A stretch of 64,000 nt of DNA, taken from NCBI GenBank assembly GCA_032622095.1, contig CP136067.1, positions 127,879,030-127,943,029 of the forward strand. The letters are read 5' to 3'. The DNA comes from Siphonodentalium dalli (lineage: Eukaryota > Mollusca > Scaphopoda > Gadilida > Siphonodentaliidae). Made by a program: the position numbers and the translations under genes. Positions 409 through 57,389 of this stretch are shown here, in pieces (position 1 is the first letter of the stretch; every line of letters starts with the position of its first letter). A model generated the notes under the pieces. That model did no database searches. It worked only from the letters and a program-made list of their open reading frames with translations, and was not told where the DNA came from.

Positions 409-1014
409 CTCAGACTTAGTAGGTGTTTCTGATGGGAGAAACGAACTGAAGCTGCCCTCATGTTCGCCGATGTGTGCAGTAGTTGGTGTCTGGAAAACAA
501 ATTATATTCATTAATGTGGATATAATTAGCCATGTCAATTAAAATTTATGTCAAGGAACTCAATTACTATTTCCTGTGTGGAACATTCTGTGCCTCTTAT
601 ATTATACATTATAGCACAGACTATTGAAAGAAAATAATCGAAAATATGCGAATAAAATACATAACATAATGTGAGCATGTAGGTGTCATAATACATACGT
701 TCGTGTTCATTACTGTGGTTGCGTTCGAATCTTCGCATAAAACGAACTGACGAACTAACTTGTGATCTATTACTTAATACTGTTCTTAAATAAGCACAAT
801 GTTTAAACTGAAATTGTTTCTCTAAATTACGGATAATAGGTCATTATAAATCACATTTGTACGAGTTGGCAATTTCTCCTGCTCTAATCCTGCTTACCTC
901 TACGTCTATACCGCTATCTCTGGACGACTCGTCGACGTGAAGCTTGAAGTCACAAGGGCTCAACAGCTGGATGATATCCATGGTATCGTCTATGTCGAAA
1001 GTGATGTTAGGAAT
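409..1014 (-). CDS. CDC25: CDC25 phosphatase gene 1, N-terminal exons a and b only
   Basis: Two phase-0 exons of a CDC25-type phosphatase. Exon a is 898-1014 (39 codons, with [11 protein letters not shown]), flanked by a pyrimidine-rich acceptor ending TTTCAG and a GTAAGC donor. Exon b is 409-489 (27 codons, [20 protein letters not shown]), flanked by TTTTCCAG and GTACGT. Identical exon structure in complete copies further along joins these to the catalytic exons, which for this gene lie before position 1. The DSG sequence in exon a resembles the DSG degron region of animal CDC25A, recognised by beta-TrCP; that function is inferred. The start codon is not certain, and exon a begins in frame without an ATG. 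Confidence 0.75.
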
Positions 1015-2751
1015 CTGAAAGAAAAATGGTTTCAATTAATTAATATGGCAAAAGAGGACGTATTGACGTCAACTCGGATATCAACCTACAATCAACTACA
1101 CTCTCGATAAATATAGGCCATATATTAATAATATAATAAATTTATACTGTGGGAATTTGATCTATTCTGGTAATATTATCCGATACGTTCATTTATTTGA
1201 AATATTTAATAACACGCGGAAATATTCAGGCAACTAAAAATATATTGGGCAATAAATTGTTGCCGCTAAATTCCATCACCTCGCTAAAGAATGTCAGACA
1301 ATGAGCACATGCTACATGCCACTGATAAGATATATTTGATCCAGTTTACGCGGTGGCGATGTGAATGATAAATATAAGGGAATACATTATAACTTAAAAT
1401 CTGTGTATCGACATAGAGGTGTATTCCAGTTCGAAATTTTAAATAATAGCATTAGGGCTCTACAAGTACCAGTTTTGAAACACTTGAAATGGATTGAGGT
1501 ACACGGTAAAACTAATAACCAGCGATGACGACGATACTCACAATGGATTCAAGGCGAGAAGAGCGAATGACTAAAAAGTCCAAAATTTACTGCTTATAAA
1601 GTATGGGACATAATGTTGTTTATTTTGAAAATACGTGAGAAACGATTCGCGATGTTGTATGATAACAAATTGTAACACATCGGGATCGCGTGGCAGAATG
1701 TTGCTCACGAATACGGTTGCCTATCACAACTCGGGGCGTTAAAATTACACAGATAGTGGGAAGAGCAGCGTCGATGCGCATGACAACGTGTTAGATTTCT
1801 TGTTCAGAAGTGTTTAGTAGCATGTTTGGAAGTGAGATAACAGTTTGTGAGTGAAATTCAGCCCAGGAACTGTCAACTATATTGTTTACAACGTATCAAC
1901 TATGTTAGCAATTTAGTCAGTCGGTGATTTGCTGAAGATGAATAACGATCAATGTGGGGATCACGAACCTCACGAAGGCCCACAAACTATACTAACAGTG
2001 ACACTGCGCTTTTTTTTGTTATTTGCTGAAGAACATCGGGACCTAACTTTTCTAAATTCTATGAATTGAACAAATCTGTATCGGGCACATGTAGTCCGGA
2101 CAATGCATGCACCAATGTTACCAACAATGTGATGAGAATTCAACAATTTTATGCGACCTACTAGCTTCAATATAATACTCTTTATTCCGGCCTCCACGTA
2201 TTCCGGCTTCCACGATGAAGAGCAGTGAGGTTATTGAATTGTATGTTTTTCTATTCACAAATTCGTGGAGAGTGTATATAAACAGCAAAAAAACAATTGT
2301 AAAAGACAAATCCAAATGTAAAAGTCAGTTAGCACATATCAGCGCGGAACGGGTGTTGTAACTTAAAAAAAAAATAGGTACACATTATTAACAGATCCGG
2401 TTTTGTGTAAACATAATTTTAAACATACCATATTGTAGATAGTTGAAAGTATTGAGTGTTTATATATAAATATGCGTTTTCTACTGCAACAAAATGAAAT
2501 TGAACTGACAAGTTAAGACGGGACACCATTTTATTAACTACGCGCACATATCACGTGACTTCAGTAGAGCTTGGCTTACCATATTGTGCAAGTGATTGAA
2601 TTTCAACCGACAAAGAGTCACTTCGTACTATGTCCCTAGCACATAAGCGCGACTGGCGGCGTTTTCTCGCCTGAGAGTGTGAAAGTCTGACCCCTTTATT
2701 AATCACCGGAACCAACTTATATGTTTCGTCGTTAATGTTATCACTCCATGA
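1015..2751. other. Intergenic/upstream region of CDC25 gene 1, no supported gene
   Basis: AT-rich sequence shared with units C, D and E. The short open frames here are not maintained between copies. For example, the frame that stays open for 96 codons at 16160-16450 is interrupted here near 1330. A possible 5' exon edge is a CAATATG followed by a GTAAGC donor on the minus strand near 2580, but nothing proves it is used. Confidence 0.5.
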
Positions 2752-4030
2752 GGAGCTTATCACTCCGAGGGGAGCTTTGCGAATATGACAAGATAGAAGA
2801 ATTCGTTTCTTTTTTTTTCAACTCAGGTTTTGCCCCCAAATTATCCTTAGTAATGTTCACTTCCATAACATTCCAGTGATGTCGATAAATGCAACAATGC
2901 GGACTTCATATGCCAACGGATGACGTATACAGGCCCTATGTAAGTCATTGAGTTCTATAAATATATATAGGGGCACCATGAAACAATAAAGAGCGTTCAT
3001 TGACAGTATATTCATGACATGTTTCTAAAGAGCATATTTCTAACTCTTGTGTGGAAACAGTTTCTAATGCTCATGTGAATTTATTTTTGGAGATATATTT
3101 ATGCAGTCTGTATGACGACATTTCATCTGATTATATTGTCCATACATATATACTACCACATTTCGTAACTATGTATAGGCGTAACAAGATAAAGAGCGTT
3201 TTAGGTTCAATGTTTAACTGAGTTCAACCATCCGCACAGCAGTGAGGCAAACGCGCTATCTTTTTACCACACCGGGAACATACATAACTGAACGCTCTTT
3301 ATATGATTACATACAGCCGACTAAGGGTATGTTCCAAGAGCTGGAAAACTTCGCAGTTGGTCTTATAATTATGTGGCGCGCGTTGGAGCTTATCACTCCG
3401 AGAAGAACTTTGCGAATATGACAAGTTTGAAGAATTCGTTTCGTTTTTTATTCAACTCAGGTTTTTCCCCCAAATTATCCTTAGTAATGGTAACTTCTAT
3501 AACATTCCAGTGATGTTCGAATGATCAATATACACGTAGGTCGATAAATACAATAATGCGGACTTTATATCCCAACGGAAGACGTAGGCCCTATGTCAAG
3601 GAGGTCTATAAATATATATAGGGGCACCATGAAACAATAAAGAGCGTTCATTGACAGTATATTCATGACATGTTTCTAAAGAGCATATTTCTAACTCTTG
3701 TGCGCACAGCAATTTCTAATGCTTACATGAATTTGTTTTTGGAGATACATGTATACAGTCTGTATGACAACATTTCATCTGATTATATTGTCCATACATA
3801 TATACTACCATATTGCGTAACTATGTATAGGCGTAACAATATAAAGAGCGTTTTATGTTCAATGTTTAACTGAGTTCAACCCTCCGCACAGCAGTGAGGC
3901 AAACGCGCTATATTTTTACCGCACCGGGAACATACATAACTGAACGCTCTTTATATTGTTACATACAACCGACTAAGTTTATGTTCTAAGAGCTGGAAAA
4001 CTTCGCAATTGGTCTTATATTTATGTGGCG
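2752..4030. repeat. Two tandem ~640-bp subrepeats with AAAGAGCGTT foldbacks
   Basis: The segment starting at 2752 (GAGCTTATCACTCCGAG) restarts at 3388. Each copy holds a TATA-like run (CTATAAATATATATAGGGGC), then CACCATGAAACAATAAAGAG, then a hairpin. In the second copy the hairpin is a perfect 20-bp stem, GTAACAATATAAAGAGCGTT near 3833 and its reverse complement near 3937, around a loop of about 90 bp. Unit B has one copy; units C, D and E have two (17610-18900, 31611-32900, 41847-43140). A 67-codon frame (3670-3873) in the second copy recurs in later units, but with many amino-acid changes and stops in the sister subrepeat, so I do not call it a gene. Confidence 0.8.
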
Positions 4031-4945
4031 CGTGTTGGAATGGGACGAAGCACTGGGAATTTAGTTTTTAGTATGACACTCTTTTGTGAATTCGGTATGC
4101 CCCACGTGACCAGAAAGAGCTTGTATTATCAGATTGAGTAACGGATTGAATTCCATCAGCCAGCAAAGAGCACTTTCCCATATGGCACCAGGCAATGCAG
4201 ATGTGACAGTCGGCCTTTTCCGATTGGAGGGTGCAATAAGCCGGTCCTTTAAAGGACAGAAAATTTTGGCCAGGTGCTAAGTGAACTATGTGTTTATTTA
4301 TGTGTGTTATAATATTACCACACACATTTGGAATTTATTAGTGTCGAGATCCTTTTTTCTCCATGGAGATTGGAAGGCCCCTACCTGGTCACGATACCAC
4401 AGGTTCCTGTCAGATTAGTCATAACACAAAAGGTACCTATATATTAGACTTATATATAGGTAAGTTACACATAAGTAAAGCAAACGCCTTTACCGTATCA
4501 TCAATAAACTGGCAAGCAATACTGCTCTTTGTTATTCCGCCGACTTTTTTTTATTTTCGGAACTGGACAGGGGTGTGCGGAAAAGCGAGAACAATTCCAC
4601 GGTGATTTAAGTGGCAACCCAAAATGAACAGTGACAGTTTACAATTTAATATGCATCCGTTATAATTCAAACTATGGACAAACCCCCGTTTTATGAGCAT
4701 ATATAAATACACGATTTGATAGTCAATAGTACTTAATATATTGACTGTTCTGATTGGATATTTTTGGAGTTGTACTGAGAGTTACAATAAAAACAATCAA
4801 GTAGAGTGTCTAAAACGATTATCTCGATCCTGACCATGAAGCGAGGAAACCATACATGCATCAATTTAATGGATCTGGTTGAATTCTTCCATATAGTTGA
4901 CGTGAAGGCCACATAAGAACGTGAGAATGAGTAATCGTAACTTAC

Positions 4946-5034
4946 CTTGCGCGCCTGTGTATGAACCGGGAATGTAGAACTCTATAGGCCACCGAGTACC
5001 ACTCGAATTAGCTTACGTTTTGCTGTATATATAG
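4946..5034 (-). promoter_or_regulatory. Candidate TATA promoter and 5' leader exon, unit A
   Basis: On the minus strand a TATA-like stretch (CCTATATATACAGC, about 5022-5034) is followed about 75-80 bp downstream by a strong splice donor, CGCAAG/GTAAGTTACG, with the exon edge at 4946. A transcript starting about 30 bp below the TATA would give a short leader exon of roughly 50 bp spliced toward CDC25 gene 1. In units C, D and E the same donor reads TTAAGT, so its invariant G is lost. This is inference from motifs only; no transcript evidence is available here. Confidence 0.3.
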
Positions 5035-5832: not shown

Positions 5833-8800
5833 CTAGAATCTCAGCGACCTCTTCCTCTGACCGTTGGACCAGGACTTGGACTTGGCTCGGAAGTGACGTA
5901 GCTGAGATGAATAATCCTGGTGCAGCATAGGTCGATATGACTGCGGGGTGCAGAGCGCCTGGAAAGAGTAATATATAGCAAATAAGTACAAAATAATATT
6001 CACAGTTTCACGAACAATATGTAGAAAAAGTACTTGTTGAGGTGCTGAAACACCGTTGCATCGACAGTGGACTACATTTGTTGCAATTACTCTACACATG
6101 CGTGTATCAAACGTGAGCTTATTGGCACAATGTCTTGTCACCATATTTTATTAGGTATATGTACAGCGTTGAAACGAATTTCGAAAATGTAGCGAAACAA
6201 AACGCACCTGTTTGGATTCGAAGAATTCCTTATATCCGCCATGAAGGATATAGATTTCAGGGTAAAACAGGTTCGGATAATTCTCGGCGTTCATCTCTCT
6301 GTCCTTCTGTCGCAGGTGTCTGAGCCTAGAAAAAATACATTCAGATATAAACCTTCGCTCACGACATAGCAATCACGTATACATGTAGTGAACTCTATTG
6401 CTACGTGTATGCTTACATCAGATTAAATAATTAAATAATGCTCCAATATCTCCTTTTCATTTTCATGCTAAACTTAAAGGAGTACTGTATACTAAATCCG
6501 GCCATATATGGGACCATCTGCTTTTATACCGAATATAAGCATAAAATTAATGAATTTGATCCATGGATTAGTGTAAAATACACGTGTACTCTATGCACGA
6601 TGCAAACAACATGGTAATTATAATGAAAATGAATTTAGAGTTTTAAGGTTTGTCAATTAGACTATTCCATCCATATGTTAATACACTAATAAACTATGGT
6701 TGACATAGAATTGTTACTTACATTTTTGGACCGCGTTCAGATGAGAACTCGCAGTGAAAGATGACGATGGTCTGGTGTTTGAGGGGAGCGTCGCCCAAAA
6801 ACCTCTTCTCGATCATCGCCTGTGTGTGGAGATTCTCAGCATCCTGTAAATAAGAAGTTACTTGTGACTTAGATACAGACCTAAGACAATACAAACACTA
6901 CTCAATTCAACTGCAAAATCGGCCGATAGGAAAACTGATCATTATTATAACAAAAATATAATTTTGTTCTGGTATTGACGATTGTTAACAATGGGTGGCT
7001 GCATTTAGATTCTTGACACACACCACCATTAAGAGTGATACAATAAATCTGAATTGATGGTCTGAGCGTGTTACCAATTTAATTATTGGACTCATTATCA
7101 GGAAAAAAACAAACAAAAGAAATAAAACTATACGGATATACATGTAAAAATTTGTAATACATGGATATGTAATTTCAACATATATATTGATATTTGTTAC
7201 GTAATAAAATAATGTTGTCTATCAAAATAATGCCAATAAAATAATTTAACTTGACATGATCCTCATTATTTTACAAAAGAAATAAATCGATTGCTGTGGT
7301 ATATTGGCAAATATTAGAGCAGAGGTCATGTCGGTGACACACACGTACCTGGATATGTCCACCTTCGTACTCATATGGGTATCGACAGTCTACGACCACA
7401 AACTCGTCGATGCTGTTGCTGAATCGGCCTGACATCAAATCTTCCAACTGTAAACAAAAATTATGAATTTCACTATCTATATTGTAAAACTGGAACAAGT
7501 CTACGATGAAACTACGGCACTTGGATATTTTAGTATATTTGGTTTACTCATCCTATAAGAACACTGGACGTCTAGTGAAGAATTTCGAGACATGACTGTA
7601 TACACCATTTATCACACATCTTTCCTGACTACTTATTATCTTTTCCCTTCTATCACACCTCAATCTTACTCATCCCTGCACTCGCTTAACTATTCCAACA
7701 TTTATGAGAGAACAGAGAACTATATTTGAATTTCCGCCTTTACATTGTAGTTGGCTGTATTGAAAACTTGAGGTAACATTTACATAGCAATTTTTTTTAT
7801 AAAAGCCATAGGCTTGTTACCCCGTCATAATTTGAACAGTTTACTTTTCTATCAGTTTGAATTTCAGATATAGAAGGAAGTCCAGATAGTTGGGCACAAA
7901 AGCAACATGGAAACATTCATATTACATGTATGTCACAATCCAATACATGCATGTCTCGATTATCGAATACATACATTAATACGTTGAAATCACTCACTGT
8001 TTGTGGGGAGATGTACTTGAGGTCCTTGTGTCGACCTGAGATGACGCGGAGAGTGTAGCTCGAGGTCCCGTCGCCGATCAGATCAACGTTGGAGGTCATG
8101 GAGTTGAGAGCTTCTTTAATTCTCATGTCGTCTTTGTCTGATTTCTCTAACAGTTGGCGTTTGGCTGGTGGTTCGATGAAATCACATTTCTCGGTGATCT
8201 GGCGTTTCAGACAGTTGTCGGAGGATTTTGAACGTCCGAAAAGACATCGAACTGGTCTACGACGGATGGACAACTGGAAGCGAAATATTTAGAACAGTGA
8301 TACATGTATCAAAATATCATATAATTATTTGCTTAGCTGTTTGTATTTAAATACTTAAATTATAAGCTTAAACTTAAATGCCACACATACACTATGGAAA
8401 TATGGCTTCTTGTCTTAGGGTGGATACACACATGCATGTAATCTCTGTAATTATCGTGTATTTGGCGTTTTACACGGATAATACAGACAATGTAACATGT
8501 GTCCACTGACAACCCAATCATTGCGGACGTGTTGACCGCACTGAGTTCTAGTTCCAATTAAGGGATGTAGAGAAGTCGCTATCTTGGACCGAGTCGCCGG
8601 GCTACTTAAAATACTTGTTCGTGGGACAACCCAGATGGTGGACGTTCTATTTAAATAATTATTAGTCCTCTCTTGTTATTTATAGCAGTGGTGGACCGGA
8701 TTTCCACCACTCGCAGGGGCTATATATATATGATCCCGAAAGCTACCAGGCGGGGGTGGCTAACTCTGAGCTATTTAAGTAAAACATTATATTGTACCTT

Positions 8801-9968
8801 CTTGCGCAGATTATTCCGACCGATATACAACTAAGTCCCTTAGCGATTTGAAGCTTTCAGGACCCCATGCCAAACAAGCATCATGGTCGAACATATTCTA
8901 TATGAAGCCTGTATATGCCAGACGTGTCGCTTCTGATGTTCGTGCATTAATAAAATGTCACACAGAGTTGACTAATTTCCGCATCCGTAAGAGAAGACGT
9001 GTTTTGGACTGGCCTTAAATGTCCTGATAGCAGACAGTTTGACTTCGCTTATCACTACTCACTTGTCTGGCATGTTAACAATGAACGCTCGCAGATATTT
9101 AATGTTGTCAATTATTGGTGTGGCCATGTAAAATACATGTATTTTACACACAGAAATTACATGCATACTGTGTGTATCCACCCTTAGGCTGCTGAAATGC
9201 TTTCCTAAATTGCTGGATAAACTGTATTCGTGTATAGGTTTCTTGGTGTTAATTGTCCGGCCATAATTTTAGCCGGTCCTATATGGTTTTTGTCAAATCT
9301 TATTAACCTATTAATGTGGCGTTCATTGTTTTCTTAATTTTAGAAATAATAATATAACGTACCTCAGACTTAGTAGGTGTTTCTGATGGGAGAAAAGAAC
9401 TGAAGCTACCCTCATGTTCGCTGATGTGTGCAGTAGTTGGTGTCTGGAAAACAAATTATATTCATTAATGTGGATATAATTAGACATATCAATTAAAATT
9501 TATGTCAAGGAACTCAATTACTATTTCCTGTGTGGAACATTCTGTGCCTCTTATATTATACATTATAGCATAGACTATTGAAAGAAAATAATCGAAAATA
9601 TGCGAATAAAATACATAACATAATGTGAGCATGTAGGTGTCATAATACATACGTTCGTGTTCATTACTGTGGTTGCGTTCGAATCTTCGCATAAAACGAA
9701 CTGACGAACTAACTTGTGATCTATTACTTAATACTGTTCTTAAATAAGCACAATGTTTATACTGAAATTGTTTCTCTAAATTACGGATAATAGGTCCTTA
9801 TAAATCACGTTTGTACGAGTTGGCAATTTCTCCTGCTCTAATCCTGCTTACCTCTACGTTTATACCGCTATCTCTGGACGACTCGTCGACGTGAAGCTTG
9901 AAGTCACAAGGGCTCAACAGCTGGATGATATCCATGGTATCGTCTATGTCGAAAGTGATGTTAGGAAT
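5833..9968 (-). CDS. CDC25: CDC25-type M-phase inducer phosphatase, gene 2 (seven intact exons)
   Basis: Dual-specificity phosphatase that activates cyclin-dependent kinases by removing inhibitory phosphates from Thr14/Tyr15 (family knowledge). Exons: a 9852-9968, b 9363-9443, c 7998-8273, d 7349-7447, e 6722-6843, f 6208-6325, g 5833-5958 with stop TAG. Every junction has GT/AG sites, and the phases join to one 312-codon frame. Exon c enters the domain ([24 protein letters not shown]). Exon d has [12 protein letters not shown]. Exon e has the CX5R catalytic loop [10 protein letters not shown], with Cys222 and Arg228 in visible numbering. Exon f has GGYKEFF, and exon g has the C-terminal SYRPM...KSKSW tail. 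The start codon is unresolved and the known N-terminus is shorter than in most animal CDC25s, so another 5' exon may exist. Introns hold a MITE and old repeat relics. It looks functional. Confidence 0.9.
6473..6593. repeat. Dispersed ~120-bp repeat in a CDC25 intron
   Basis: Starts at TTAAAGGAGTACTGTA and ends at ATTAGTGTAAAATACAC. A related copy sits in gene 4 (about 21145-21254), and a diverged one lies outside the array at 55812-55923, so this is a dispersed element rather than part of the gene. The family is not recognised. Confidence 0.6.
7597..7857 (+). repeat. Relic related to the LINE 3' untranslated region, in a CDC25 intron
   Basis: This segment matches, in reverse complement, the region downstream of the reverse transcriptase ORF near 24270-24550. 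Shared blocks include CATCCCTGCACTCGCTTAAC and TATAAAAGCCATAGGCTTG. The equivalent in gene 4 is about 22237-22495, so it was present before the array expanded. It is probably an old 5'-truncated copy of the same or a related LINE. Confidence 0.55.
8418..9183. mobile_element. PIF/Harbinger-like MITE in CDC25 gene 2, intron b-c
   Basis: The ends are inverted repeats. The left begins GGGTGGATACACACATGCAT; the right, read in reverse complement, begins GGGTGGATACACACA and continues with the same ATGCATGTAAT after a 3-bp insertion. Both ends abut TTA (8415-8417 and 9184-9186), a 3-bp target duplication as used by PIF/Harbinger transposons. The 766-bp element has no transposase frame. Copies occupy the same intron in other array genes, so insertion predates the duplication. 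Confidence 0.55.
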
Positions 9969-11545: not shown

Positions 11546-12248
11546 GTACCCACCCAAGTTCAGATAGAAGGTCGCTATTGTTAGTGCTACGCGTGGCTCC
11601 TGAAACAATCCTTGCTGCTTCAAATTAAATTTTTTCAAGTCGTGTGCTCAATTCACATGTACAATTGTCCCATACTGGTGCAGCATATTCTATGATTGGA
11701 CGAATGTAAGAGAAATATATTTTTTGAAGGGTTTTTCTATTCAGCGAAAATCTATCCATTCGCATTATATTAATTTTCTTCCAAGCTCTATCAGTAATAT
11801 CATCTATGTGGTCACCCCATTTCGCTTGATTGTCAAATGTTAATCCTAAGTGCTTATGCGAGCTAACTTCTGTGATAATAGAATTGGACATCTGAAGTGG
11901 TGGGTGGGCTATGGGTGTTCGCTTTCTGGAGATGAGAAGAGATTCAGTTTTTTGAGGATTAAAAGTAACAAGCCACTGATGTGCCCAATTAGCTAGTCTC
12001 GCGATATCCATATTCATCAGATCTGCTGCTCTGTCTGGATCTTCTATAATAAGAAACATGGATGTATCGTCAGCAAAAAGTCGAATGTGACAAGTAACAT
12101 TTTCAGAGATATCGTTTATATAAACTATAAATAGTAAAGGTCCAAGTATAGATCCTTGGGGAACACCTGCTTGTACGGGTTTCCAATCTGAGTTTTCATT
12201 GTCAATTGTTACTCGTTGTTGGCGTTGACTTAGATAACTCTCGATCAA
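11546..12248 (-). pseudogene. Non-LTR retrotransposon reverse transcriptase fragment
   Basis: A 207-codon frame covers the middle of an RT domain: [23 protein letters not shown] (motif B), RLFADD (motif C), TFNPQKTESLLISR and SSHKHLGLTFD. It is related to, but clearly different from, the complete RT at 24934-27072. After LEKI an in-frame TAA replaces a codon, yet homology continues past it (ARIVSGATRS...ELGW) and stops exactly at the junction with unit B sequence at 11545. The fingers and motif A are missing upstream. The fragment is therefore truncated at both ends and interrupted by a stop. Confidence 0.85.
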
Positions 12249-13560
12249 GTGAAGTAATATTAGTAATATTGTGTTCCTTTCTCAAACCACCTCGCACCAT
12301 TCCCTGATAAATGTAGGTGAACCGTTCTATCATTACATTCTTGTCAACAGAGACCATTGTTCCGGCAGGAACACATAATATCAAACCGAAACGCCTTGTC
12401 GCGTACCGAAAATTATAGACACAGGGGAAGCTTATTTGCGAAGACACCCGGAGATCCTCGGCTGTTGTCGGTGGTTTCTTCATCCAAATTGGCAGGCTGA
12501 TTGTTTGGGCCCCAAACACCACGACTTTGTTGTAATTTGCATGACTTGAATGCGTATTATTAAGACATATATTGGTCCTAGAAAGGTAGTTTGGGCATTA
12601 TCTACCTATTTTGATACAGTAAAAATTTAAAAAGTGATTATTATTTTGTGTATTTTGGAGCGCAAACCGCCATGTGGTTTTAACCAGATGCATTCATTTG
12701 ACGCATGCATGGTTACGGTTTCCTCGCTGCATGATCGGGATCGAGATAATCCGGGAGACTCGATGGCAGTCGGAGGAATGTAACAATCGAAAGAGCGTTC
12801 CGTTTTATGTTCCTTATATGGATAAACATAAAGAGCGTTTGGAATGCCGAAAGTAGTCAAACGGGTGTGGTTTTTATGCCGTTATACACACTTTATACAT
12901 GTATACTCAGAAGCTGCGTTAAATTTTATGCAAACAAAAGCAAACGCTTTGTATTGTCATCGGTTCATGAATATACTGACTTTGAAAGCTCTTTATTGTT
13001 TCAGTATGCAGAAACATTCTCATTTAACTATATGCGTAGTGATGTATTTGCAATATACGTTGTTTTAACGGACAATTGCTCGGATCCGGTATTTAAATGT
13101 CTGGCAAGCATCAATCGTGCTATAACTCGTGGAATGTTCCCGCTCCAATAAGCGATAACCAATCGAAGACACATACTCTGTAATTCCAATATTGACTACT
13201 AAAACATTTGCAATATATATCCAGATAGCCGTCTATGGAGATTGTCATGATAATTAGCCAGCTGTGTGAACGTACCCTTAGTCGGAGGAATGTAACAATC
13301 CAACACTGTAACAGTTCCGTATTGTGTTCATTATATGGTTAAACATAAAGAGCGTTTGGAATGCCGAAAGTATTCAAACGGGTGACGTTTTTGAACATTA
13401 AACCTAAAACAATATACACGTTTACGCCAATTGGTAGAAGGGACAGTGTAATCCGATACATAGACTTTAGTGTAAACATATTTTTATTTCCAAATCCAAA
13501 CATAATACACATAATACACAAGTGACATAAATATATAACATATAAGAGATAAATGTATGG
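12249..13560. other. Foreign segment with foldback relics inside unit B
   Basis: About 12686-12760 is a diverged inverted copy of the intergenic block at 4813-4880 (shared ATTATCTCGATCC and AGCGAGGAAACC). AAAGAGCGTT occurs near 12791, 12829 and 13346, two of these followed by TGGAATGCCGAAAGTA. An open frame on the minus strand (12250-12522) has protein-like composition but no family I recognise. Confidence 0.45.
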
Positions 13561-32800: not shown

Positions 32801-34680
32801 GAACGCTCTTTATATTGTTACATAGATCCGACTAAGGGTATGTTCTAAGAGCTGGAAAACTTCGCAATTGGTCTTATATTTAGGTGGCGCGTGTTGGAAA
32901 GGGACGACGCACTAGGAATTTAGTTTTTACACAAAAAGTACCTATATATTAGACTTATATATAGGTAAGTTACTCATAAGTTTTTTTTTTATTTTCGGAA
33001 CTGGACAGGGGTGTGCGGAAAAGCGAGAACAATTCCACGGTGATTTAAGTGGCAACCCAAAATGAACAGTGACAGTTTACAATTTAATATGCATCCGTTA
33101 TAATTCAAACTATGGACAAACCCCCGTTTTATGAGCATATATAAATACACGATTTGATATCCAATAGTACTTACTATATTGACTGTTCTGATTGCATATT
33201 GTTTGGAGTTGTACTGAGAGTTACATTAAAAACAATCAAGTAGAGTGTCTAAAACGATTATCTCGATCCTGACCATAAAGCGAGGAAACCATACATGCAT
33301 CAATTTAATGGATCTGGTTGAATTCTTCCATATAGTTGACGTGAAGGCCACATAAGAACATGAGAATGAGTAATCGTAACTTAACTTGCGCGCCTGTGTA
33401 TGAACCGGGAGTATAGAACTCTAGGCTACCGAGTACCACTCGTATTAGCTTACGTTTTGCTGTATATATAGGGTTTCGATTCCTTATAAGGATTTCCCAA
33501 AATGAAGCCGCTTAATGAGATAACGTTGTTTCGGCAATAACAAGGTTTCCTATTTCTGGATCTTTAATAATCCTCTTATGGGAATTAAAATCGTCGGGTC
33601 CTTCGTCAACAAATACCACAAGCATCCCACTTTGACAGTTTGACCAAAAAAAATATTAAGTATTGCTCACTCTTAATGAAAATTCAACACGAGATATAGT
33701 CTGGGGCTTGTACTGAAAACGGAACGAACAAGTACATATTATGTTATTAGATGCAAGTGGCAACAGGACTTCCGGTCGTGGAGAAAATCACTCTGGGCTA
33801 GACGAGGTCATGGGTTCGAACTTCGAACATATACTATTAAACTAAAATTATTGTAATGTGGTTGTTACTTTGGAATTACCCATTTTATTACAAAAGTATA
33901 GCATACACATTTTGTATTACAAAATTAGTAAATTCCAAAGTAACACTCACGTTACACTAATTTTTTGTTATTATGGTAATCAACTGGATTTCTACCAATG
34001 TATGTCTCTCACTGTTGATTTAGATTCAACATACACGACGATAACTTCATTAACAACATGCCTCCACGAGAAATGATATTCAACAGATCTTCTGGGACAG
34101 TATTGGGCCATGGGTTGAGGGAACTGGCAATGTGCCATTCTCGTCGATAGAGTAGTAACATAAGTTTGACAACAATATTTATTTTCAATGTAGCACGTTA
34201 TGTGAAACAATATATATTAACAATAATTTAGCGAGGTCTTTATGGCATATACATTTTATAAATAACAATAACAGTATCACAGCTAAGCTTGAAAACAAAA
34301 CAAATATCTCACACACCAAGCAGTTCATATATTGCTACCCAAATGACGTTTTTTGGGGAGGGGGGTGTATTAATAAATAGTTAGTCAAGAAAGACATGTG
34401 ACTACCCGTTAAGTACGCTGATCAAATCTTGGTGCACTGGTGTCTGAGAAATAACATGACAACAAATAACAACAAACAACAGAGTAACAACAACTTGATG
34501 ATGACGAACAGCTAGAATCTCAGCGACCTCTTCCTCTGACCGTTGGACCAGGACTTGGACTTGGCTCGGAAGTGACGTAGCTGAGATGAATAATCCTGGT
34601 GCAGCATAGGTCGATATGACTGCGGGGTGCAGAGCGCCTGGAAAGAGTAATTTATAGCAAATAAGTACAAAATAATATTC
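29238..34680. repeat. CDC25-array unit D
   Basis: Colinear with unit C from the equivalent of position 386 onward: exons b and a of gene 4, intergenic DNA with two AAAGAGCGTT subrepeats (31611-32900), a mutated-donor leader motif (about 33390-33465), the 189-bp insertion (33779-33967) and exon g of gene 5. Differences from unit C are scattered single bases and a 7-bp expansion of a CATATCA run near 31391. Confidence 0.88.
33779..33967 (+). mobile_element. 189-bp SINE/MITE-like insertion, unit D copy
   Basis: Same insertion and flanks as 19779-19967. The unit E copy is at 44015-44203. Confidence 0.5.
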
Positions 34681-35169
34681 AAGCGAGTGCAGGGATCAGA
34701 AAGATGGAGGAGTGATAGAAGGGAGGAGATTATGAAATAGACAAGAAAGATAGTAAAGTTGGTGGAAAAGAAGTGTGATAAATGCTGTATACAATAATCC
34801 CTCAGTCATAATCTAAATTTTACATTTTGGCGTTAAATCATGGTGTGTTGTCCAATACAGAAACGGAATTAGACCCCAAATACGTCTCGGCACCCAGGAG
34901 AGATGATGCATGAAAATAAGTATATAAGTATATATTAGGATAATTGTTATACTTGTAGTGCGTATCAATATAATCTAGATACAATTAGTACATGTAAGTA
35001 CAATCAGTAGTAAGTCCATTAATATGCCAAGGTCAGCACGGTTGAGCATGCACTCCGTGGGCAGACAGGCGGATATGCCCGAACACAATGTGCAGAAACG
35101 CGACTTACATATTTATACATACAAGTTATGCACATCATGTTCACATACACGACCCCCTGCGCACGGAGC

Positions 35170-37308
35170 TCACACATTATCGAAACGTCGACTTTGGATA
35201 ATAAACAGTTGTACAGCTTCAAATATTATAGAATTTGTTTCATCGGACATCTCATTAGACCCATATAATAGGACATCAATGTTCACATCTGCTGGCGAAA
35301 ATGGCAGAGCGGCTATCATATCAGCTCTAATTTGACTATATTGGGGACATTGCAAAAGAAAGTGGTACGCGGATTCAACTACAAATTCTCCACAAGAGCA
35401 AAATGGGGAATCTCTTACGTAATTTACAACAAGATCTTTGTTCAGATGGCTGCACCCCAGTCTCATTCTTGTGTGATATACTTGGCCTCTACGAGAGTGA
35501 CTATGATAATAAAACTTTGCTATATTAGTATGACCGACCTTCAGAAGACGCTTGAATTCTTCCACGGTTGATGATGCTTTTATTGAGACAGGTATATTAT
35601 TCCATGCGCGTATTGCTGACGGTAAGAACGTATCCATATATTTATTTCTGTTACTATATGGAGGGTGGATACTTACGCGTCTGTGATTATATCCAGAAGA
35701 TGTCGAATCGGGTGGGATCATGGTTGAAAGATAAGATGGGGCCTGATTTCTATGCATCTTGTAAAATAATATCATATGTTGAGTATGTCTCCTGGATGAA
35801 AGGGTTTCCCAACCAGTTTCAAATAATAAGTTTTTATCACTGACACTTCTGGTAGCCCCAGTAACAATCCTCGCCATCTCATATTGAATATCTTCAATTT
35901 TGTCACTCTTATAAATTGGTATATTATTCCAAACAGGTGACGCATATTCGAGTATCGGCCTTACATATGAGAAATAGGATTTTTCAAGTGTTGTCCTGCT
36001 CAGTCGGAATTTATGTCTCCGAATATGATTTACTCTTTTCCAGGCCTTTTCGGTCATCGTTTGTATATGAGTTTCCCAGGATCCGTTGTTATCGAAAGAG
36101 ACACCTAGATGTTTATGAGAACTTACCTCTGTAACTTGCGATGCCGCCATAATTAATGGTGGGTGAACAATAGCAGAATTCATCCTTGATACTATTAACG
36201 CTTCCGTTTTTAAAGGATTAAATGTTACTAACCACATTTTTGACCAGTTCACAATAGTTTGAATGTCATTGTTCATGATTTCTGCAGCTAACGTTGGATT
36301 TTCAACACATAAATATATTGAAGTATCGTCTGCAAAAAGTCGTATATTACATATAATATTTTCAGTTATATCATTAATGTATACAAGAAATAGGAGTGGA
36401 CCTAAGATAGATCCCTGTGGTACGCCTGCTGAAACATCATGCCAATCGGAGCTAGCATTGTCAATTAGGACTCTCTGTTGTCTGGATTGTAAATATGATT
36501 TAATCAAGTTATATGCCTTGCCATTGATACCCATTTTCGAGAGTTTATGTAGAAGCCCCTTATGCCACACTTTATCAAAAGCCTTACTGATGTCACAAAA
36601 GATACAACGCACATCCTTACCTTCATCGAGTGATCTGCTAATATAATCATATACATCAACAAGTTGGTATACGGCAGAATCACCTTTAGTGAACCCAGAT
36701 TGGTAAATAGAAAGCAAATTGCGTTTGTCAAGATACGACGAGAGGTATTTATATATGCACTTTTCGTATGTTTTTGATACGCAGCTCAATAGTGAGATTG
36801 GGCGGTAGTTAGATATGACACTAGGATCACCACTCTTGAAGACAGGGGTTACATTAGATCGCTTCCACTCTGATGGATAATAACCGTCATCGGTAAATTT
36901 GTTGAAGAAATATGCAAGAGGTTCACATAGGGAGGACGCACATACTTTTAATACACGAGGGCTAATATTATCAGGGCCACTCGCTTTGGACACTTTTAGT
37001 GCCTTCAGTGCGTTATATACGTCAACTGACGTGATACAAATTTCTGTTAATTCAGTATCAACAATTGATCTGCATTCGTGGTTATACTGTGGTATGCTAT
37101 GTAATCTATCGTCTAGGTTTGATATTGCGCAAAAGTAGTCGTTTAAAGCATTCGCCTTTTCATCTGGTGAGACCATATAATTTTCCCCACTTGCAAGAGG
37201 TGGTACGGTTCTGTTATTATTTGGAAATAAGAGTTTCTGAAGTTGTGTGCCAATGACAGTACATATGCCATCGGAGTATAGTATGTTTGGTCCTGGAAAA
37301 CAGCCCAT
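35170..37308 (-). CDS. LINE reverse transcriptase ORF, copy 2
   Basis: Same 712-codon protein as at 24934-27072 with one change, Ser91 to Cys. All RT motifs, including FADD and the C-terminal Cys/His knuckle, are intact. The 3' untranslated region is cut at 34681 by the tandem junction, so this copy lacks the element's 3' end, which is normally needed for mobilisation. Confidence 0.92.
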   Translation of the reverse strand: MGCFPGPNILYSDGICTVIGTQLQKLLFPNNNRTVPPLASGENYMVSPDEKANALNDYFCAISNLDDRLHSIPQYNHECRSIVDTELTEICITSVDVYNALKALKVSKASGPDNISPRVLKVCASSLCEPLAYFFNKFTDDGYYPSEWKRSNVTPVFKSGDPSVISNYRPISLLSCVSKTYEKCIYKYLSSYLDKRNLLSIYQSGFTKGDSAVYQLVDVYDYISRSLDEGKDVRCIFCDISKAFDKVWHKGLLHKLSKMGINGKAYNLIKSYLQSRQQRVLIDNASSDWHDVSAGVPQGSILGPLLFLVYINDITENIICNIRLFADDTSIYLCVENPTLAAEIMNNDIQTIVNWSKMWLVTFNPLKTEALIVSRMNSAIVHPPLIMAASQVTEVSSHKHLGVSFDNNGSWETHIQTMTEKAWKRVNHIRRHKFRLSRTTLEKSYFSYVRPILEYASPVWNNIPIYKSDKIEDIQYEMARIVTGATRSVSDKNLLFETGWETLSSRRHTQHMILFYKMHRNQAPSYLSTMIPPDSTSSGYNHRRVSIHPPYSNRNKYMDTFLPSAIRAWNNIPVSIKASSTVEEFKRLLKVGHTNIAKFYYHSHSRRGQVYHTRMRLGCSHLNKDLVVNYVRDSPFCSCGEFVVESAYHFLLQCPQYSQIRADMIAALPFSPADVNIDVLLYGSNEMSDETNSIIFEAVQLFIIQSRRFDNV

Positions 37309-37557
37309 TCAATTAATATAGGCGTTGACAACTGAGTGCGAAGACGGACGCTGTGAACTCGAACAGACTTACTCTCGACAACCAAATAATATCTACTCAC
37401 GACGAGTTAAATTTGGTCGCTCTTATTAGCACCTATCTGGAAAAACTGGTCGTGGTTTGTGGTAACCTTTATTGGTGCACGATTACATGTGTATGAACTT
37501 CGTCAGCTCGGTCTGTTTCAACATCGTATATCGCAACACTTACTTCGCGTGACTGTA

Positions 37558-39477
37558 ATGGAGGGTGTTCTTATCCAATCTGACCAAATATTAAATGGTC
37601 TCGATGATTTCGAACATTTGCAGCTAAATATGGCGGAGCATGATGTATACGAACTCCAACAAATTGGAGAGATGCGAAATGAGGAACTTGTTGCAAAGCA
37701 AAACTCTTCCTCACTCAACGCTTGCCTGCCTCCAATGTTAAATGCACAATCATGCATTTCAAGCCCCATTGTGCATACGATCGACAAATCTGAAGCAACA
37801 GAATCGCCACCTCTTCGAAGTCTTTTGAACCTCCCAAAAGACAAATTTATCAATGAACTGTTGCATGTTATTCCAGACGAAACCGGTCTCAACGCGTTGA
37901 GACATTCCGTATTTACGGAAGCTAGACATAACAGCGAGGAACTTCAACAGTGCAAACTGAAGCAACGATTCCAACGAGACTCTGGAAAGCCAAACCGCGA
38001 AAAATACGCTAACGATATTTACAACATAGTGCAGTTTATTCGGGGTGACAATTTCAGTGTTATACGCGATGTCGTTACGAAAACACTATCTGTGAACAGT
38101 AGCACAATACAACCTGGTAATGAGCCCAACAAAAGAGAGTCTTCGGAGCCGTGCAAATGTAATACGATCTGTATACAAGATAAACTCACTGAAACTCTGA
38201 CCGATTTGACTCTTACAAAAAAGAACCAATTGGAACGTGAACAAAAATGGTCAGACGACTTGTCATCAGTGAATAGCTCTATAAACACACTGACAAAAAA
38301 CCAGTCAGACATTATGGAGAAACTAACTATCTTGGAGACAATTGTTTGTGATGTCAAACTGAAGTGCAATTCTAACTCAACGTCTATTGGTAGCACCATT
38401 GGCAATGTAGCTTCAGTCAGTCTCGGACTGGATCGTCTGCGAGATGATAAGTGCATGGGTATCGACAATCTAAAGCATCGCGTTAAGATGTTAGAAAGCA
38501 ACGTCGGCTCATCACAGGACGACTATCATAATTTTATCAAATCTGTGAACTCCAAAGTGTCCGACATGTCGAAGTCTTTCGTCAAACACGAGTCGTTAGA
38601 TCGAAGACTATCTTCTCTCACAAGCAAATGCTCATCGACGGTTGGAACTATTAAGCAGCATGTTGACGGTGTAGAGAGACCAATCGATTTGCTGTGGAAA
38701 GCTACCGACATGTCACATCATAATTTGTCAATAGGAGATCCTCAGGCAAACAGCAGTACAAACTCTGGAACACAAAACCAACCTAGGACACCGGGTGCTC
38801 TTGCTACAAATTCCAATGATATAATTATTGACAGTGTAGTGAATAACAGTGATGCTAGCCCTAAAATCCTGCCCGAACCGTCGGTCGATCCACTCGACCA
38901 CTTATCTCCTATAAATTGGTCAAAGGATACCAGCTCCCTAATGAGGGAAATTCTTGTCAAGACCAAAAAATCTACTGACTTTACTACCACGAATCAAGCT
39001 GACACTCAGTCAAGATCTCCAACATTCAGTAATATGCTGGCGAATACCGCAGGTGTTGGCAATTCGATTGCCTCTTCGAAAGCGCAATCTGACAATGTCG
39101 CATCGGGACAACATTCCTCGCATTCTAATTCAAATTATAACGAAAGTTTAAATAGCATTCCTGTCATTTCAACAACCGAGCAGAATGAGGAGAGACAACG
39201 AACGTACAACACAGACCGCACGCGCGACGACATGAGAATGGCCCACAACTCGTCAGTTCGTAATAAATATGACAACAACTCGAAAATGCAAGTATTCAAT
39301 TCATACCACCAACAAACTTCAGCATCAGAAACCGATTCGACGCACATATTCCATGATGTCCCACCACGCGATTACCACGATGAAGAATATCGTCACGACG
39401 ATACATGCGGCTTTAAAGGCGTGTTACCTAAAAGAGGTCGGAGAACCCGTAAAATCTTTATAGGAAGGATTTATTAG
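37558..39477 (+). CDS. ORF1-like protein of the LINE, 3'-truncated, copy 2
   Basis: Identical in translation to the copy at 27322-29241. First in-frame ATG 37558; the open frame extends back to a GTG at 37459. Ends at the same junction with CDC25 intron sequence. Confidence 0.6.
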   Translation: MEGVLIQSDQILNGLDDFEHLQLNMAEHDVYELQQIGEMRNEELVAKQNSSSLNACLPPMLNAQSCISSPIVHTIDKSEATESPPLRSLLNLPKDKFINELLHVIPDETGLNALRHSVFTEARHNSEELQQCKLKQRFQRDSGKPNREKYANDIYNIVQFIRGDNFSVIRDVVTKTLSVNSSTIQPGNEPNKRESSEPCKCNTICIQDKLTETLTDLTLTKKNQLEREQKWSDDLSSVNSSINTLTKNQSDIMEKLTILETIVCDVKLKCNSNSTSIGSTIGNVASVSLGLDRLRDDKCMGIDNLKHRVKMLESNVGSSQDDYHNFIKSVNSKVSDMSKSFVKHESLDRRLSSLTSKCSSTVGTIKQHVDGVERPIDLLWKATDMSHHNLSIGDPQANSSTNSGTQNQPRTPGALATNSNDIIIDSVVNNSDASPKILPEPSVDPLDHLSPINWSKDTSSLMREILVKTKKSTDFTTTNQADTQSRSPTFSNMLANTAGVGNSIASSKAQSDNVASGQHSSHSNSNYNESLNSIPVISTTEQNEERQRTYNTDRTRDDMRMAHNSSVRNKYDNNSKMQVFNSYHQQTSASETDSTHIFHDVPPRDYHDEEYRHDDTCGFKGVLPKRGRRTRKIFIGRIY

Positions 39478-42400
39478 AAATAATAATATAACGTACCTCA
39501 GACTTAGTAGGTGTTTCTGATGCGAGAAACGAACTGAAACTACCTTCATGTTCGCTGATGTGTGCAGTAGTTGGTGTCTGTAAAACAAATTATATTCATT
39601 AATGTGGATATAATTAGCCATATCAATTAAAATTTATGTCAAGGAACTCAATTACTATTTCCTGTGTGGAACATTCTGTGCCTCTTATATTATACATTAT
39701 AGCATAGACTATTGAAAGAAAATAATCGAAAATATGCGAATAAAATACATAACATAATGTGAGCATGTAGGTGTCATAATACATACGTTCGTGTTCATTA
39801 CTGTGGTTGCGTTCGAATCTTCGCATAAAATGAACTGACGAACTAACTTGTGATCTATTCCTTAATACTGTTCTCAAATAAACACAATGTTGAAACTGAA
39901 ATTGTTTCTCTAAATTACGGATAATAGGTCCTTATAAATCACGTTTGTACGAGTTGGCAATTTCTACTGCTCTAATCCTGCTTACCTCTACGTCTATACC
40001 GCTATCTCTGGACGACTCGTCGACGTGAAGCTTGAAGTCACAAGGGCTCAACAGCTGGATGATATCCATGGTATCGTCTATGTCGAAAGTGATGTTAGGA
40101 ATCTGAAAGAAAAATGGTTTCAATTAATTAATATGGCAAAAGAGGACGTATTGACGTCAACTCGGATATCAACCTACAATCAACTACACTCTCGATAAAT
40201 ATAGGCCATATATTAATAATATAATAAATTTATACTGTGGGAATTTGATCTATTCTGGTAATATTCTCCGATACGTTCATTTATTTGAAATATTTAATAA
40301 CACGCGGAAATATTCAGGCAACTAAAATATATATTGGGCAATAAATTGTTGCCGCTAAATTCCATTACCTCGCTAAAGAATGTCAGACAATGAGCACACG
40401 CTACATGCCACTGATAAGATCCAGTTTATGCGGTGGCGATGTGAATGATAAATGTAAGGGAATACATTATAACTTAAAATATGTGTATCGACATAGAGAT
40501 GTATTCCAGTTCGAAGTGTTAAATAATAGCATTAGGGCTCTGCAAGTACCAGTTTTGAAACATTTGAAATGGATTGAGGTACACGGTAAAACTAATAACC
40601 ACGCGATGACGACGATACTCACAATGGATTCAAGGCGAGAAGAGCGAATGAATAAAAAGTCCAAACTTTACTGCTTATAAAGTAAGGGACATAATGTTGT
40701 TTATTTTGAGAATACGTGAGAAACGATTCGCGATGTTGTATGATAACAAATTGTAACACATCGGGATCGCGTGGCAGAATGTTGCTCACGAATACGGTTG
40801 CCTATCACAACTCTGGGCGTTAAAATTACACAGATAGTGGGAAGAGCAGCGTCGATGCGCATGACAACGTGTTAGATTTCTTGTTCAGAAGTGTTTAGTC
40901 GCATGTTTGGAAGTGAGATAACAGTTTGTGAGTGAAATTCAGCCCAGGAACTGTCAACTATATTGTTTACAACTTATCAACTATGTTAGCAATTTAGTCA
41001 GTCGGTGATTTGCTGAAGATGAATAACGATAAATGGGGGATCACGAACCTCACGAAGGCCCACACAATATACTGACACTGCGCTTTTTTTGGTTATCTGC
41101 TGAAGAAAATCGGGACCTAACTTTTCTAAATTCTATGAATTGAACAAATCTGTATCGGGCACATGTAGTCCGGACAATGCATGCACCAATGTTACCACCA
41201 ATGTGATGAGAAGTCAACAATCTTATGCGACCTACTAACTTCAATATAATACTCTTTATTCCGGCCTCCACGTATTCCGGCCTCCACGATGATGAGCAGT
41301 GAGGTTATTGAATTGTATGTTTTTCTATTCACAAATTCGTGGAGAGTGTATATAAACAGCAAAAAAACAATTGTAAAAGACAAATCCAAATGTAAAAGTC
41401 AGTTAGCACATATCAGCGCGGAACGGGTGTTGTAACTTTAACAAAAATAGGTACACATTATTAAGAGATCCGGTTTGTGTGCATATGTAAACATAATTTT
41501 AAACATACCATATTGTAGATAGTTGAAAATATTGAGTGTTTATATATGAATATGCGTTTTCTACTGCAACAAAATGAAATTGAACTGACAAGGTAAGACG
41601 GGACACCATTTTATTAACTACGCGCACATATCACATATCACATATCACATATCAGTTGAGCCTGGCTTACCATATTGTGCAAGTGATTGAATTTCAACCG
41701 ACAAAGAGTCACTTCTACTATGTCCCTAGCCCATAAGCGCGACTGGCGGCGTTTTCTCGCCTGATAGTGTGAAAGTCTGACCCCTTTATTAATCACCGGA
41801 ACCAACTTATATGTTTCGTCGTTAACATTACCACTCCATGAGGAGCTTATCACTCCGAGGGGAGCTTTGCGAATATGACAAGATTGAAGAATTCGTTTCG
41901 TTTTGTTTTCAACTCAGGTTTTGGCCCCAAATTATCCTTAGTAATGCTCACTTCCATAACATTCCAGTGATGTTCGGAAGATCAATATACAATTATGTCG
42001 ATAAATACAACAATGCGGCCTTCATATGCAGACAGATGACGTATACAGGCCCTATGTTAGTCATTGAGTTCTATAAATATATATAGGGGCACCATGAAAC
42101 AATAAAGAGCGTTTATTGACAGTATATTCATGACATGTTTCTAAAGAGCATATTTCTAACTCTTGTGTGGAAATAGTTTCCAATTCTCATGTGAATTTAT
42201 TTTTGGAGATACATTTATACAGTCTGTATGACGACATTTCATCTGATTATATTGATCATACATATATACTACCACATTGCGTAACTATGTATATGCGTAA
42301 CAATATAAAGAGCGTTTTAGGTTCAATATTTAACTGAGTTCAACCATCCGCACAGTAGTGAGGCAAACGCGCTATATTTTTACCACACCGGGAACATACA

Positions 42401-44916
42401 TGACCGAACGCTCTTTATATTGTTACATACAGCCGAATAAGAGTATGTTCCAAGAGCTGGAAAACTTCGCAATTGGTCTTATATTTATGTGGCGCGCGTT
42501 GGAGCTTATCACTCCGAGAGCAACTTTGCGAATATGACAAGTTTGAATAATTCGTTTTGTTTTTCAACTCAGGTTTTGCCCCCGAATTATCCTTAGTAAT
42601 GGTAACTTCTATAACATTCCAGTCATGTTCGGAAGATCAATATACACGTAGGTCGATAAATACAACAATCCGGACGACGTAGGCCCTATGCCAAGGAGTT
42701 CTATAAATATATATAGAGGCACCATGAAACAATAAAGAGCGTTCACTGACAGTATATTCATGACTTGTTTCTAAAGAGCATATTTCTAACTCTTGTGCGG
42801 ACATCAATTTCTAATACTTATGTGAATTTGATTTTGGAGATACATGTATACAGTCTGTATGACGACATTTCATTTGATTATATCGTCCATCCATATATAC
42901 TACCACATTGCGTAACTATGTATAGGTGTAACAATATAAAGAGCGTTTTAGGTTCAATGTTTAACTGAGTTCAACCCTCCGCACAGCAGTGAGGCAAACG
43001 CTCTATATGTTTACCACACCGGGAACATACACAACTGAACGCTCTTTATATTGTTACATAGATCCGACTAAGGGTATGTTCTAAGAGCTGGAAAACTTCG
43101 CAATTGGTCTTATATTTAGGTGGCGCGTGTTGGAAAGGGACGACGCACTAGGAATTTAGTTTTTACACAAAAAGTACCTATATATTAGACTTATATATAG
43201 GTAAGTTACTCATAAGTTTTTTTTTTATTTTCGGAACTGGACAGGGGTGTGCGGAAAAGCGAGAACAATTCCACGGTGATTTAAGTGGCAACCCAAAATG
43301 AACAGTGACAGTTTACAATTTAATATGCATCCGTTATAATTCAAACTATGGACAAACCCCCGTTTTATGAGCATATATAAATACACGATTTGATATCCAA
43401 TAGTACTTACTATATTGACTGTTCTGATTGCATATTGTTTGGAGTTGTACTGAGAGTTACATTAAAAACAATCAAGTAGAGTGTCTAAAACGATTATCTC
43501 GATCCTGACCATAAAGCGAGGAAACCATACATGCATCAATTTAATGGATCTGGTTGAATTCTTCCATATAGTTGACGTGAAGGCCACATAAGAACATGAG
43601 AATGAGTAATCGTAACTTAACTTGCGCGCCTGTGTATGAACCGGGAGTATAGAACTCTAGGCTACCGAGTACCACTCGTATTAGCTTACGTTTTGCTGTA
43701 TATATAGGGTTTCGATTCCTTATAAGGATTTCCCAAAATGAAGCCGCTTAATGAGATAACGTTGTTTCGGCAATAACAAGGTTTCCTATTTCTGGATCTT
43801 TAATAATCCTCTTATGGGAATTAAAATCGTCGGGTCCTTCGTCAACAAATACCACAAGCATCCCACTTTGACAGTTTGACCAAAAAAAATATTAAGTATT
43901 GCTCACTCTTAATGAAAATTCAACACGAGATATAGTCTGGGGCTTGTACTGAAAACGGAACGAACAAGTACATATTATGTTATTAGATGCAAGTGGCAAC
44001 AGGACTTCCGGTCGTGGAGAAAATCACTCTGGGCTAGACGAGGTCATGGGTTCGAACTTCGAACATATACTATTAAACTAAAATTATTGTAATGTGGTTG
44101 TTACTTTGGAATTACCCATTTTATTACAAAAGTATAGCATACACATTTTGTATTACAAAATTAGTAAATTCCAAAGTAACACTCACGTTACACTAATTTT
44201 TTGTTATTATGGTAATCAACTGGATTTCTACCAATGTATGTCTCTCACTGTTGATTTAGATTCAACATACACGACGATAACTTCATTAACAACATGCCTC
44301 CACGAGAAATGATATTCAACAGATCTTCTGGGACAGTATTGGGCCATGGGTTGAGGGAACTGGCAATGTGCCATTCTCGTCGATAGAGTAGTAACATAAG
44401 TTTGACAACAATATTTATTTTCAATGTAGCACGTTATGTGAAACAATATATATTAACAATAATTTAGCGAGGTCTTTATGGCATATACATTTTATAAATA
44501 ACAATAACAGTATCACAGCTAAGCTTGAAAACAAAACAAATATCTCACACACCAAGCAGTTCATATATTGCTACCCAAATGACGTTTTTTGGGGAGGGGG
44601 GTGTATTAATAAATAGTTAGTCAAGAAAGACATGTGACTACCCGTTAAGTACGCTGATCAAATCTTGGTGCACTGGTGTCTGAGAAATAACATGACAACA
44701 AATAACAACAAACAACAGAGTAACAACAACTTGATGATGACGAACAGCTAGAATCTCAGCGACCTCTTCCTCTGACCGTTGGACCAGGACTTGGACTTGG
44801 CTCGGAAGTGACGTAGCTGAGATGAATAATCCTGGTGCAGCATAGGTCGATATGACTGCGGGGTGCAGAGCGCCTGGAAAGAGTAATTTATAGCAAATAA
44901 GTACAAAATAATATTC
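39474..44916. repeat. CDC25-array unit E
   Basis: Equivalent of unit D at +10,236 bp. Subrepeats lie at about 41847-43140, the mutated-donor leader motif near 43630-43700, and the 189-bp insertion at 44015-44203. No additional gene. Confidence 0.88.
44748..44873 (-). CDS. CDC25: CDC25 gene 6, terminal exon g only
   Basis: 41 codons plus TAG, with the TTCCAG acceptor and the [10 protein letters not shown]...KSKSWSNG tail intact. The rest of the gene would lie beyond the LINE and the scaffold gap. By analogy with gene 5 the catalytic exons are probably missing here too. Confidence 0.7.
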   Translation of the reverse strand, partial: ALCTPQSYRPMLHQDYSSQLRHFRAKSKSWSNGQRKRSLRF

Positions 44917-57381: not shown

Positions 57382-57389
57382 CTCTCTCA

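Follow-up and report, generated by a model that had tools for sequence, protein, structure and literature searches.

A 69-kb tandem array of CDC25 genes in the scaphopod Siphonodentalium dalli, probably part of a family amplified in clusters on two contigs

A 64,000-nucleotide stretch of the Siphonodentalium dalli genome (here, the window; C7:127,879,030-127,943,029, where C7 is contig CP136067.1 of the 2.23-Gb, nine-contig assembly GCA_032622095.1) holds a CDC25 gene that recurs head to tail. Judging from comparisons across the window, 100 kb fetched on each side, and the whole assembly, it is very probable that the window shows one end of a 69-kb CDC25 array, and that at least six clusters on two contigs form a mass-amplified, constrained family with decayed members. 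CDC25 triggers mitotic entry, and because it sets the moment of that entry, its activity is normally scarce and tightly regulated.

Exon searches used gene 2 as the reference copy, with its exons named a to g. All copies in the window lie on the minus strand:

898-1014 and 409-489, minus strand: gene 1, exons a and b (exon search)
Beyond the left edge of the window, minus strand: gene 1, exons d and c, the latter with a 2-nt insertion (fetched flank)
5833-9968, minus strand: gene 2, seven exons, all open, with AG/GT borders; a 9852-9968, b 9363-9443, c 7998-8273, d 7349-7447, e 6722-6843, f 6208-6325, g 5833-5958; HCEFSSER at 6733-6756
14054-15872, minus strand: gene 3 remnant, a 15756-15872, b 15267-15347, and only the first 176 of the 276 nt of exon c, 14054-14229; catalytic exons absent
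20511-29866, minus strand: gene 4, seven exons, all open; a 29750-29866, b 29261-29341, c 22626-22901, d 21978-22076, e 21394-21515, f 20880-20997, g 20511-20630 (with an in-frame 6-nt deletion); HCEFSSER at 21405-21428
39986-40102, 39497-39577, and 34512-34637, minus strand: gene 5, exons a, b, and g; exons c to f absent
44748-44873, minus strand: gene 6, exon g only, followed by a gap at 47609-47708

The exon placements, splice sites, and phases (0 at every junction except e/f, which is phase 2) reproduce what an earlier note on this DNA had described: a seven-exon CDC25 gene repeated head to tail on one strand. Exon copies in the window are 95-100% identical to the exons of gene 2; that identity, together with a CDC25B match at 2e-62 (see below), excludes a chance origin of the exon map. 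Our search agrees with the note that genes 2 and 4 are complete and that genes 3 and 5 lack catalytic exons, and the HCEFSSER site that it had read is present at two sites in the window, one in each of the complete genes. The note had also proposed an array of at least six genes or remnants. Six loci are indeed there, but only two (genes 2 and 4) have the capacity to encode an enzyme, and what genes 5 and 6 multiply is a segment without phosphatase-coding capacity; the idea that six window genes add CDC25 dosage was rejected because only genes 2 and 4 have all seven exons. As for the note's statement that genes 1 and 6 are cut by the window or a gap, gene 6 does consist of exon g and then the gap, but gene 1 is itself truncated, since its exons e to g were not found in the fetched left flank.

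By its sequence, the encoded protein is a true CDC25. The spliced product of gene 2, from exon a through the stop, is 312 amino acids long, and its best relative in the Protein Data Bank is CDC25B (E=2e-62). The 12 distinct top matches are all CDC25A, B, or C chains (2e-62 to 5.7e-55); the next and last is an Sb(V)-As(V) reductase (5e-4). The alignment to CDC25B spans residues 127-309 of the gene 2 product and takes in the C-terminal YRPM stretch and basic tail, while about 130 amino acids lie ahead of the catalytic domain. Pfam Rhodanese (PF00581) matches at 1.2e-10, with 42 bits against a curated cutoff of 22. The protein thus has the CX5R catalytic loop and the C-terminal part of CDC25, and is closest to CDC25 rather than to other rhodanese or DUSP proteins. 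Where translation begins is less plain: none of exons a to g is an ATG-start exon, and a scan for upstream exons in genes 2 and 3 yielded only exons ending in a lone ATG, before a GTAAGC or GTATGT donor; upstream motifs of these two types occur in five copies. A 42-codon upstream frame in gene 3 was unconvincing as a coding exon. Exon a contains an in-frame ATG whose context, judged by eye, is strong. Translation may start either in a short upstream exon ending in ATG or at the in-frame ATG of exon a.

The array runs 24 kb further left of the window through units m3 (exons a to g), m2 (c to f), and m1 (a to g), so that nine units span 69 kb, from -23,904 to 44,873 in window coordinates. Where least broken, a gene and its spacer measure about 9 kb. 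In four of the nine units (m3, m1, gene 2, and gene 4), every one of the seven exons has an open frame and the splice sites are canonical. Exon blastn found no further CDC25 exons in the rest of the 264 kb, where tblastn with the gene 2 protein gave only matches with E above 7.

A search of the whole assembly with the gene 2 protein returned 133 exon matches; 127 of 907 candidates were scored, and all counts are lower bounds. Loci of exon c were counted from the match list, their start positions being transferred by hand for clustering. There are at least 93 such loci in six clusters, 58 on C7 and 35 on C6:

C7:46.86-46.99 Mb: 14 exon-c loci
C7:48.60-48.93 Mb: 27 exon-c loci
C7:49.23-49.43 Mb: 10 exon-c loci
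C7:127.86-127.90 Mb: 7 exon-c loci, the window's array, all seven known copies being recovered
C6:72.49-72.73 Mb: 13 exon-c loci
C6:74.03-74.43 Mb: 22 exon-c loci

The tandem amplification that the earlier note had called local is real but not merely local. A single CDC25 locus per haploid genome, the result that the note had named as refuting it, is contradicted at the level of the assembly by these loci and clusters. Identity of the exon-c matches to gene 2 is 65-94% on C7 and 54-61% on C6 (43% in one case). Among neighbors, exactly equal exon-c spacings recur: 8,705 bp three times, in a group whose unit L033 is intact in exons c to g, and 3,609 bp four times. The latter group, at C7:48857099-48871535, consists of five exon-c copies exactly 3,609 bp apart; L041, sampled from it, has exons c to e but has lost the f donor and lacks g. 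It is either a compact array of truncated genes or an assembly loop.

To judge integrity outside the window's array, we scored 21 copies from the five other clusters for an open frame over exons c to g, AG/GT borders, and a stop after g. These copies were picked by hand, not at random, and some are close neighbors (L036 and L041 belong to one array; L031 and L037 are at zero tree distance). Fourteen of the 21 passed, all 14 with HCEFSSER; the motif was present in 19 of the 21 and was not found in L028 and L046. With m3, m2, m1, and genes 2 and 4 included, 17 of 26 passed. Gene 4 failed solely through its in-frame 6-nt deletion, and m2 because it lacks g.

The copies fall into two classes. In a tree of 16 intact d-g sequences, the five from C6 formed one clade with support of 1.000 (L045, intact with 465 nt in d-g, was excluded from the tree and from the selection analysis for its differing length). 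Of 153 codons, 55-62 differ synonymously and 29-37 nonsynonymously between C6 and C7 sequences, and synonymous sites are close to saturation or past it. C6 and C7 hold two old paralogs, each of which has been amplified. Within the catalytic exons, the median ratio of nonsynonymous to synonymous substitution rates (dN/dS) was 0.073 on C7 (47 of 55 pairs, those with dS > 0.02) and 0.249 on C6 (10 of 10 pairs), the pairs not being independent. Units m1 and gene 2 differ in exons d to g by 11 synonymous and 2 nonsynonymous codons. Between genes 2 and 4, d-g carries fewer substitutions (2 of 459 aligned bases) than noncoding sequence does (44 of 2,256; Fisher p = 0.017); for exon c (10 of 276) this does not hold (p = 0.08, in the opposite direction).

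Which units are closest to each other depends on the part of the gene compared: over the a-b block the partner of gene 2 is m3, but over the e-f block gene 4 takes that place, and m1, m2, and m3 stand apart from the two. Between genes 3 and 4 the difference is 2.0% at exons a-b but 0.34% upstream. Between clusters, L029, L034, and L035, which come from three of them, are separated by zero branch length in d-g, and m3 and L029, about 79 Mb apart, show a single nonsynonymous codon difference and no synonymous difference. These patterns fit unequal exchange and conversion among units, across clusters too, although some stretches may be duplicates made in assembly.

Several observations weigh against a constrained, mass-amplified family. 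Only 4 of the 9 units in the window's array are complete, and one of these, m3, has in the left flank (-23024 to -22903) a catalytic loop that reads HCEFTSER, a serine-to-threonine change from HCEFSSER that is absent from all other loop-bearing copies examined. The N-terminal half is under weak constraint, with 8 nonsynonymous and 6 synonymous codon differences between genes 2 and 4 in exons a to c; in d to f these two genes differ by 2 nonsynonymous codons and no synonymous one, besides the 6-nt deletion in g. Low dN/dS among recent copies may partly mirror constraint before duplication, or gene conversion. Elsewhere, 7 of the 21 sampled copies failed the exon c-g test: in L028 and L046 the break is in exon e, with f and g absent; in L036 and L041 the f donor is lost and g absent; L042 has lost the c donor; L043 has a break in c and neither f nor g; and L039 is missing exon g within the fetched stretch, beyond which it may lie. 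Stops occur in 5 of the 93 exon-c matches, although the matched stretch may overrun the exon. Finally, a search of the genome for the Rhodanese family gave five matches, none in the CDC25 clusters, likely because introns split the domain. Two of the five, L004 and L005, were not taken as CDC25; their translations resemble MKP/DUSP rhodanese domains. The other three (L001-L003) were read in one frame only.

Three other explanations of the family deserve weight, none of them probable. The first is genetic conflict, in which CDC25 would be amplified in the manner of drivers and suppressors, with copy number on two chromosomes under antagonistic germline selection. Two amplified paralog classes on two contigs do recall the co-amplified families (Slx/Sly, Stellate) described in PMC10618873; against conflict, the catalytic half of the C7 class is slow to evolve. 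We consider it unlikely. Slightly less likely still is a dying or megasatellite-like array, made up mostly of pseudogenes that spread as repeats, with a single ordinary CDC25 gene carrying out the function. Such a single-copy gene may lie elsewhere in the genome. Exons are missing in five of the nine units of the window's array, the failures elsewhere point the same way, and the noncatalytic units (genes 5 and 6) have themselves been duplicated. Against this stand the two-thirds of sampled copies (14 of 21) that are intact in c-g and the low dN/dS of the catalytic exons across clusters.

The duplicated noncatalytic units bear on a further alternative. A 10,236-bp unit is present 2.26 times from 24445 up to the gap at 47609, as follows:

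24445-34680: copy 1; it carries a retroelement, two exons of gene 4 (b and a), the upstream region, and one exon of gene 5 (g)
34681-44916: copy 2
44917-47608: copy 3, cut, ending at the 100-N gap at 47609-47708

The count of 2.26 refers to the assembled part; the gap, the only run of N in the window, is by its round length inferred to be a placeholder. Copies of the unit differ by one mismatch (position 26802) in 12,928 aligned bp. The unit runs from a point inside the b-c intron of gene 4 to one that lies 43 bp upstream of gene 5's exon g. Its junction has one base in common with both parents and so looks illegitimate rather than homologous. Genes 5 and 6 derive from one such unit and have no catalytic-loop exon; since the unit holds exons a, b, and g only, its duplication multiplies a segment unable to encode a phosphatase.

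An assembly artefact, in which the apparent number of CDC25 genes, truly one or a few, is raised by haplotype copies or repeat loops joined in series, would be most plausible in such exactly periodic stretches. The near-perfect 10,236-bp unit runs into a 100-N gap, exact spacings of 8,705 bp (three times) and 3,609 bp (four times) occur in other clusters, and d-g sequences are identical in three clusters. Units m3 to gene 4, however, mostly differ by about 1-6% in the blocks compared (0.34% upstream of genes 3 and 4), and they have distinct breakpoints and insertions as well as mosaic relationships. The two contigs, moreover, hold two old paralog classes whose synonymous differences are close to saturation or past it. 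We regard an artefact as improbable, somewhat more so than a dying array. That gene 5-type copies make a catalytically empty a-b-g protein of 107 amino acids, competing with active CDC25 for CDK or regulators, is very improbable: exons a, b, and g of the 10,236-bp unit do have intact splice sites and join in frame, all in phase 0, but the splice must skip a retroelement, and a by-product of the illegitimate junction is simpler.

Other features of the window lie within or beside the array:

11546-14053: transposon-rich replacement, joining the upstream region of gene 2 to the truncated exon c of gene 3
11625-12281, minus strand: reverse-transcriptase fragment inside that replacement
24934-27072, minus strand: 712-amino-acid open frame that matches RVT_1 (reverse transcriptase), with further copies at 35170 and 45406
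27175-29241, plus strand: 688-amino-acid open frame, repeated at 37411

In gene 4, 5.7 kb of foreign sequence replaces about 460 bp of the b-c intron; a single simple retroelement insertion was rejected there, since the 460 bp were lost. The 712- and 688-amino-acid frames (24934-29241) stand back to back on opposite strands, and the latter gave no Pfam match; together they are possibly a retroelement with an inverted 5' part, of the twin-priming type. The left breakpoint of the 10,236-bp unit falls within an interspersed element of about 200 bp (24312-24515), whose copies in the c-d introns (7618-7814 and 22247-22442) have the opposite orientation. Upstream of genes 1, 3, 4, and 5 lies an internal tandem duplication of about 650 bp (2752-4039 and its copies), which holds the inverted repeats ATAAAGAGCGTT and AACGCTCTTTAT; gene 2 has a single copy. 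Right at the right edge of the gap begins a 38-bp satellite of about 207 copies (47709-55626), G-rich on the plus strand with a GC skew of about +0.5; with up to four mismatches allowed, its unit was found nowhere else in the window. To the right of the satellite, 56374-62957 holds reverse-transcriptase-like fragments (by eye), and blastn found no CDC25 exons there. Rfam gave no matches in the whole window at gathering scores, nor in bases 1-60000 at E up to 0.01.

CDC25 families include CDC25A, CDC25B, and CDC25C in vertebrates and string and twine in Drosophila; to our knowledge, known families have a few genes only. The largest count that we can cite is that of Caenorhabditis elegans, with four genes (cdc-25.1 to cdc-25.4; PMC5144981). 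The S. dalli genes have in common with the vertebrate, fly, and C. elegans genes the catalytic domain with its loop, the conserved C-terminal YRPM region, and membership in a multigene family; they differ in numbering at least 93 exon-c loci in tandem clusters rather than a few genes. Among the matches listed from the open-license PMC literature, titles and the starts of abstracts report no comparable CDC25 array, which is no proof of absence.

The nearest analogue known to us is the mammalian DUB/USP17-RS447 megasatellite (PMC2874809). Both systems carry an enzyme gene in head-to-tail units, lie on two chromosomes, have expanded independently, and contain an assembly gap. RS447 units hold one 1,593-bp frame, whereas the CDC25 array consists of seven-exon genes, with more divergent units and frequent truncation; the 10,236-bp repeats are nearly identical but lack catalytic exons, and in the group with three 8,705-bp spacings one unit, L033, is intact in c-g. 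DUB-3 is reported to control CDC25A stability (PMC2874809); RS447 amplifies a DUB, whereas here CDC25 itself is amplified. With the sex-chromosome families Slx/Sly and Stellate/Su(Ste), the S. dalli family would share multicopy, co-amplified members and gene conversion (PMC10618873). The CDC25 family differs in that its catalytic exons are constrained.

We propose that the units of this mass-amplified family arise by unequal crossing-over among tandem copies and that gene conversion partly homogenizes them, between clusters too. Intact copies would be transcribed to give active CDC25, which would remove inhibitory phosphates from CDK1, and the family as a whole might raise or diversify CDC25 output; genes 3, 5, and 6, like other broken units, would be by-products. 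The amplification may be due to germline or embryo dosage, conflict between amplified copies, or passive spread; that germline cells or early embryos need the dose would be the most ordinary guess. On balance, though with less confidence than we place in the array and its clusters, we favor two anciently diverged CDC25 paralogs that were each amplified to tens of copies in tandem clusters on two chromosomes (at least 93 exon-c loci), a large share of them catalytically intact and under purifying selection, as a high-copy, labile mitotic switch, whether through dose selection or germline conflict.

If this is true, S. dalli would have the largest CDC25 repertoire known to us, and a rate-limiting switch of mitosis would have become a high-copy multigene family that is labile in copy number. 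Families of this kind may be collapsed or inflated by annotation pipelines and haplotype purging. With dozens of constrained copies in labile tandem arrays, the question would arise of how dose is controlled, and the drivers to weigh would be a demand for dose (large eggs, rapid cleavage, or the germline) or genetic conflict.

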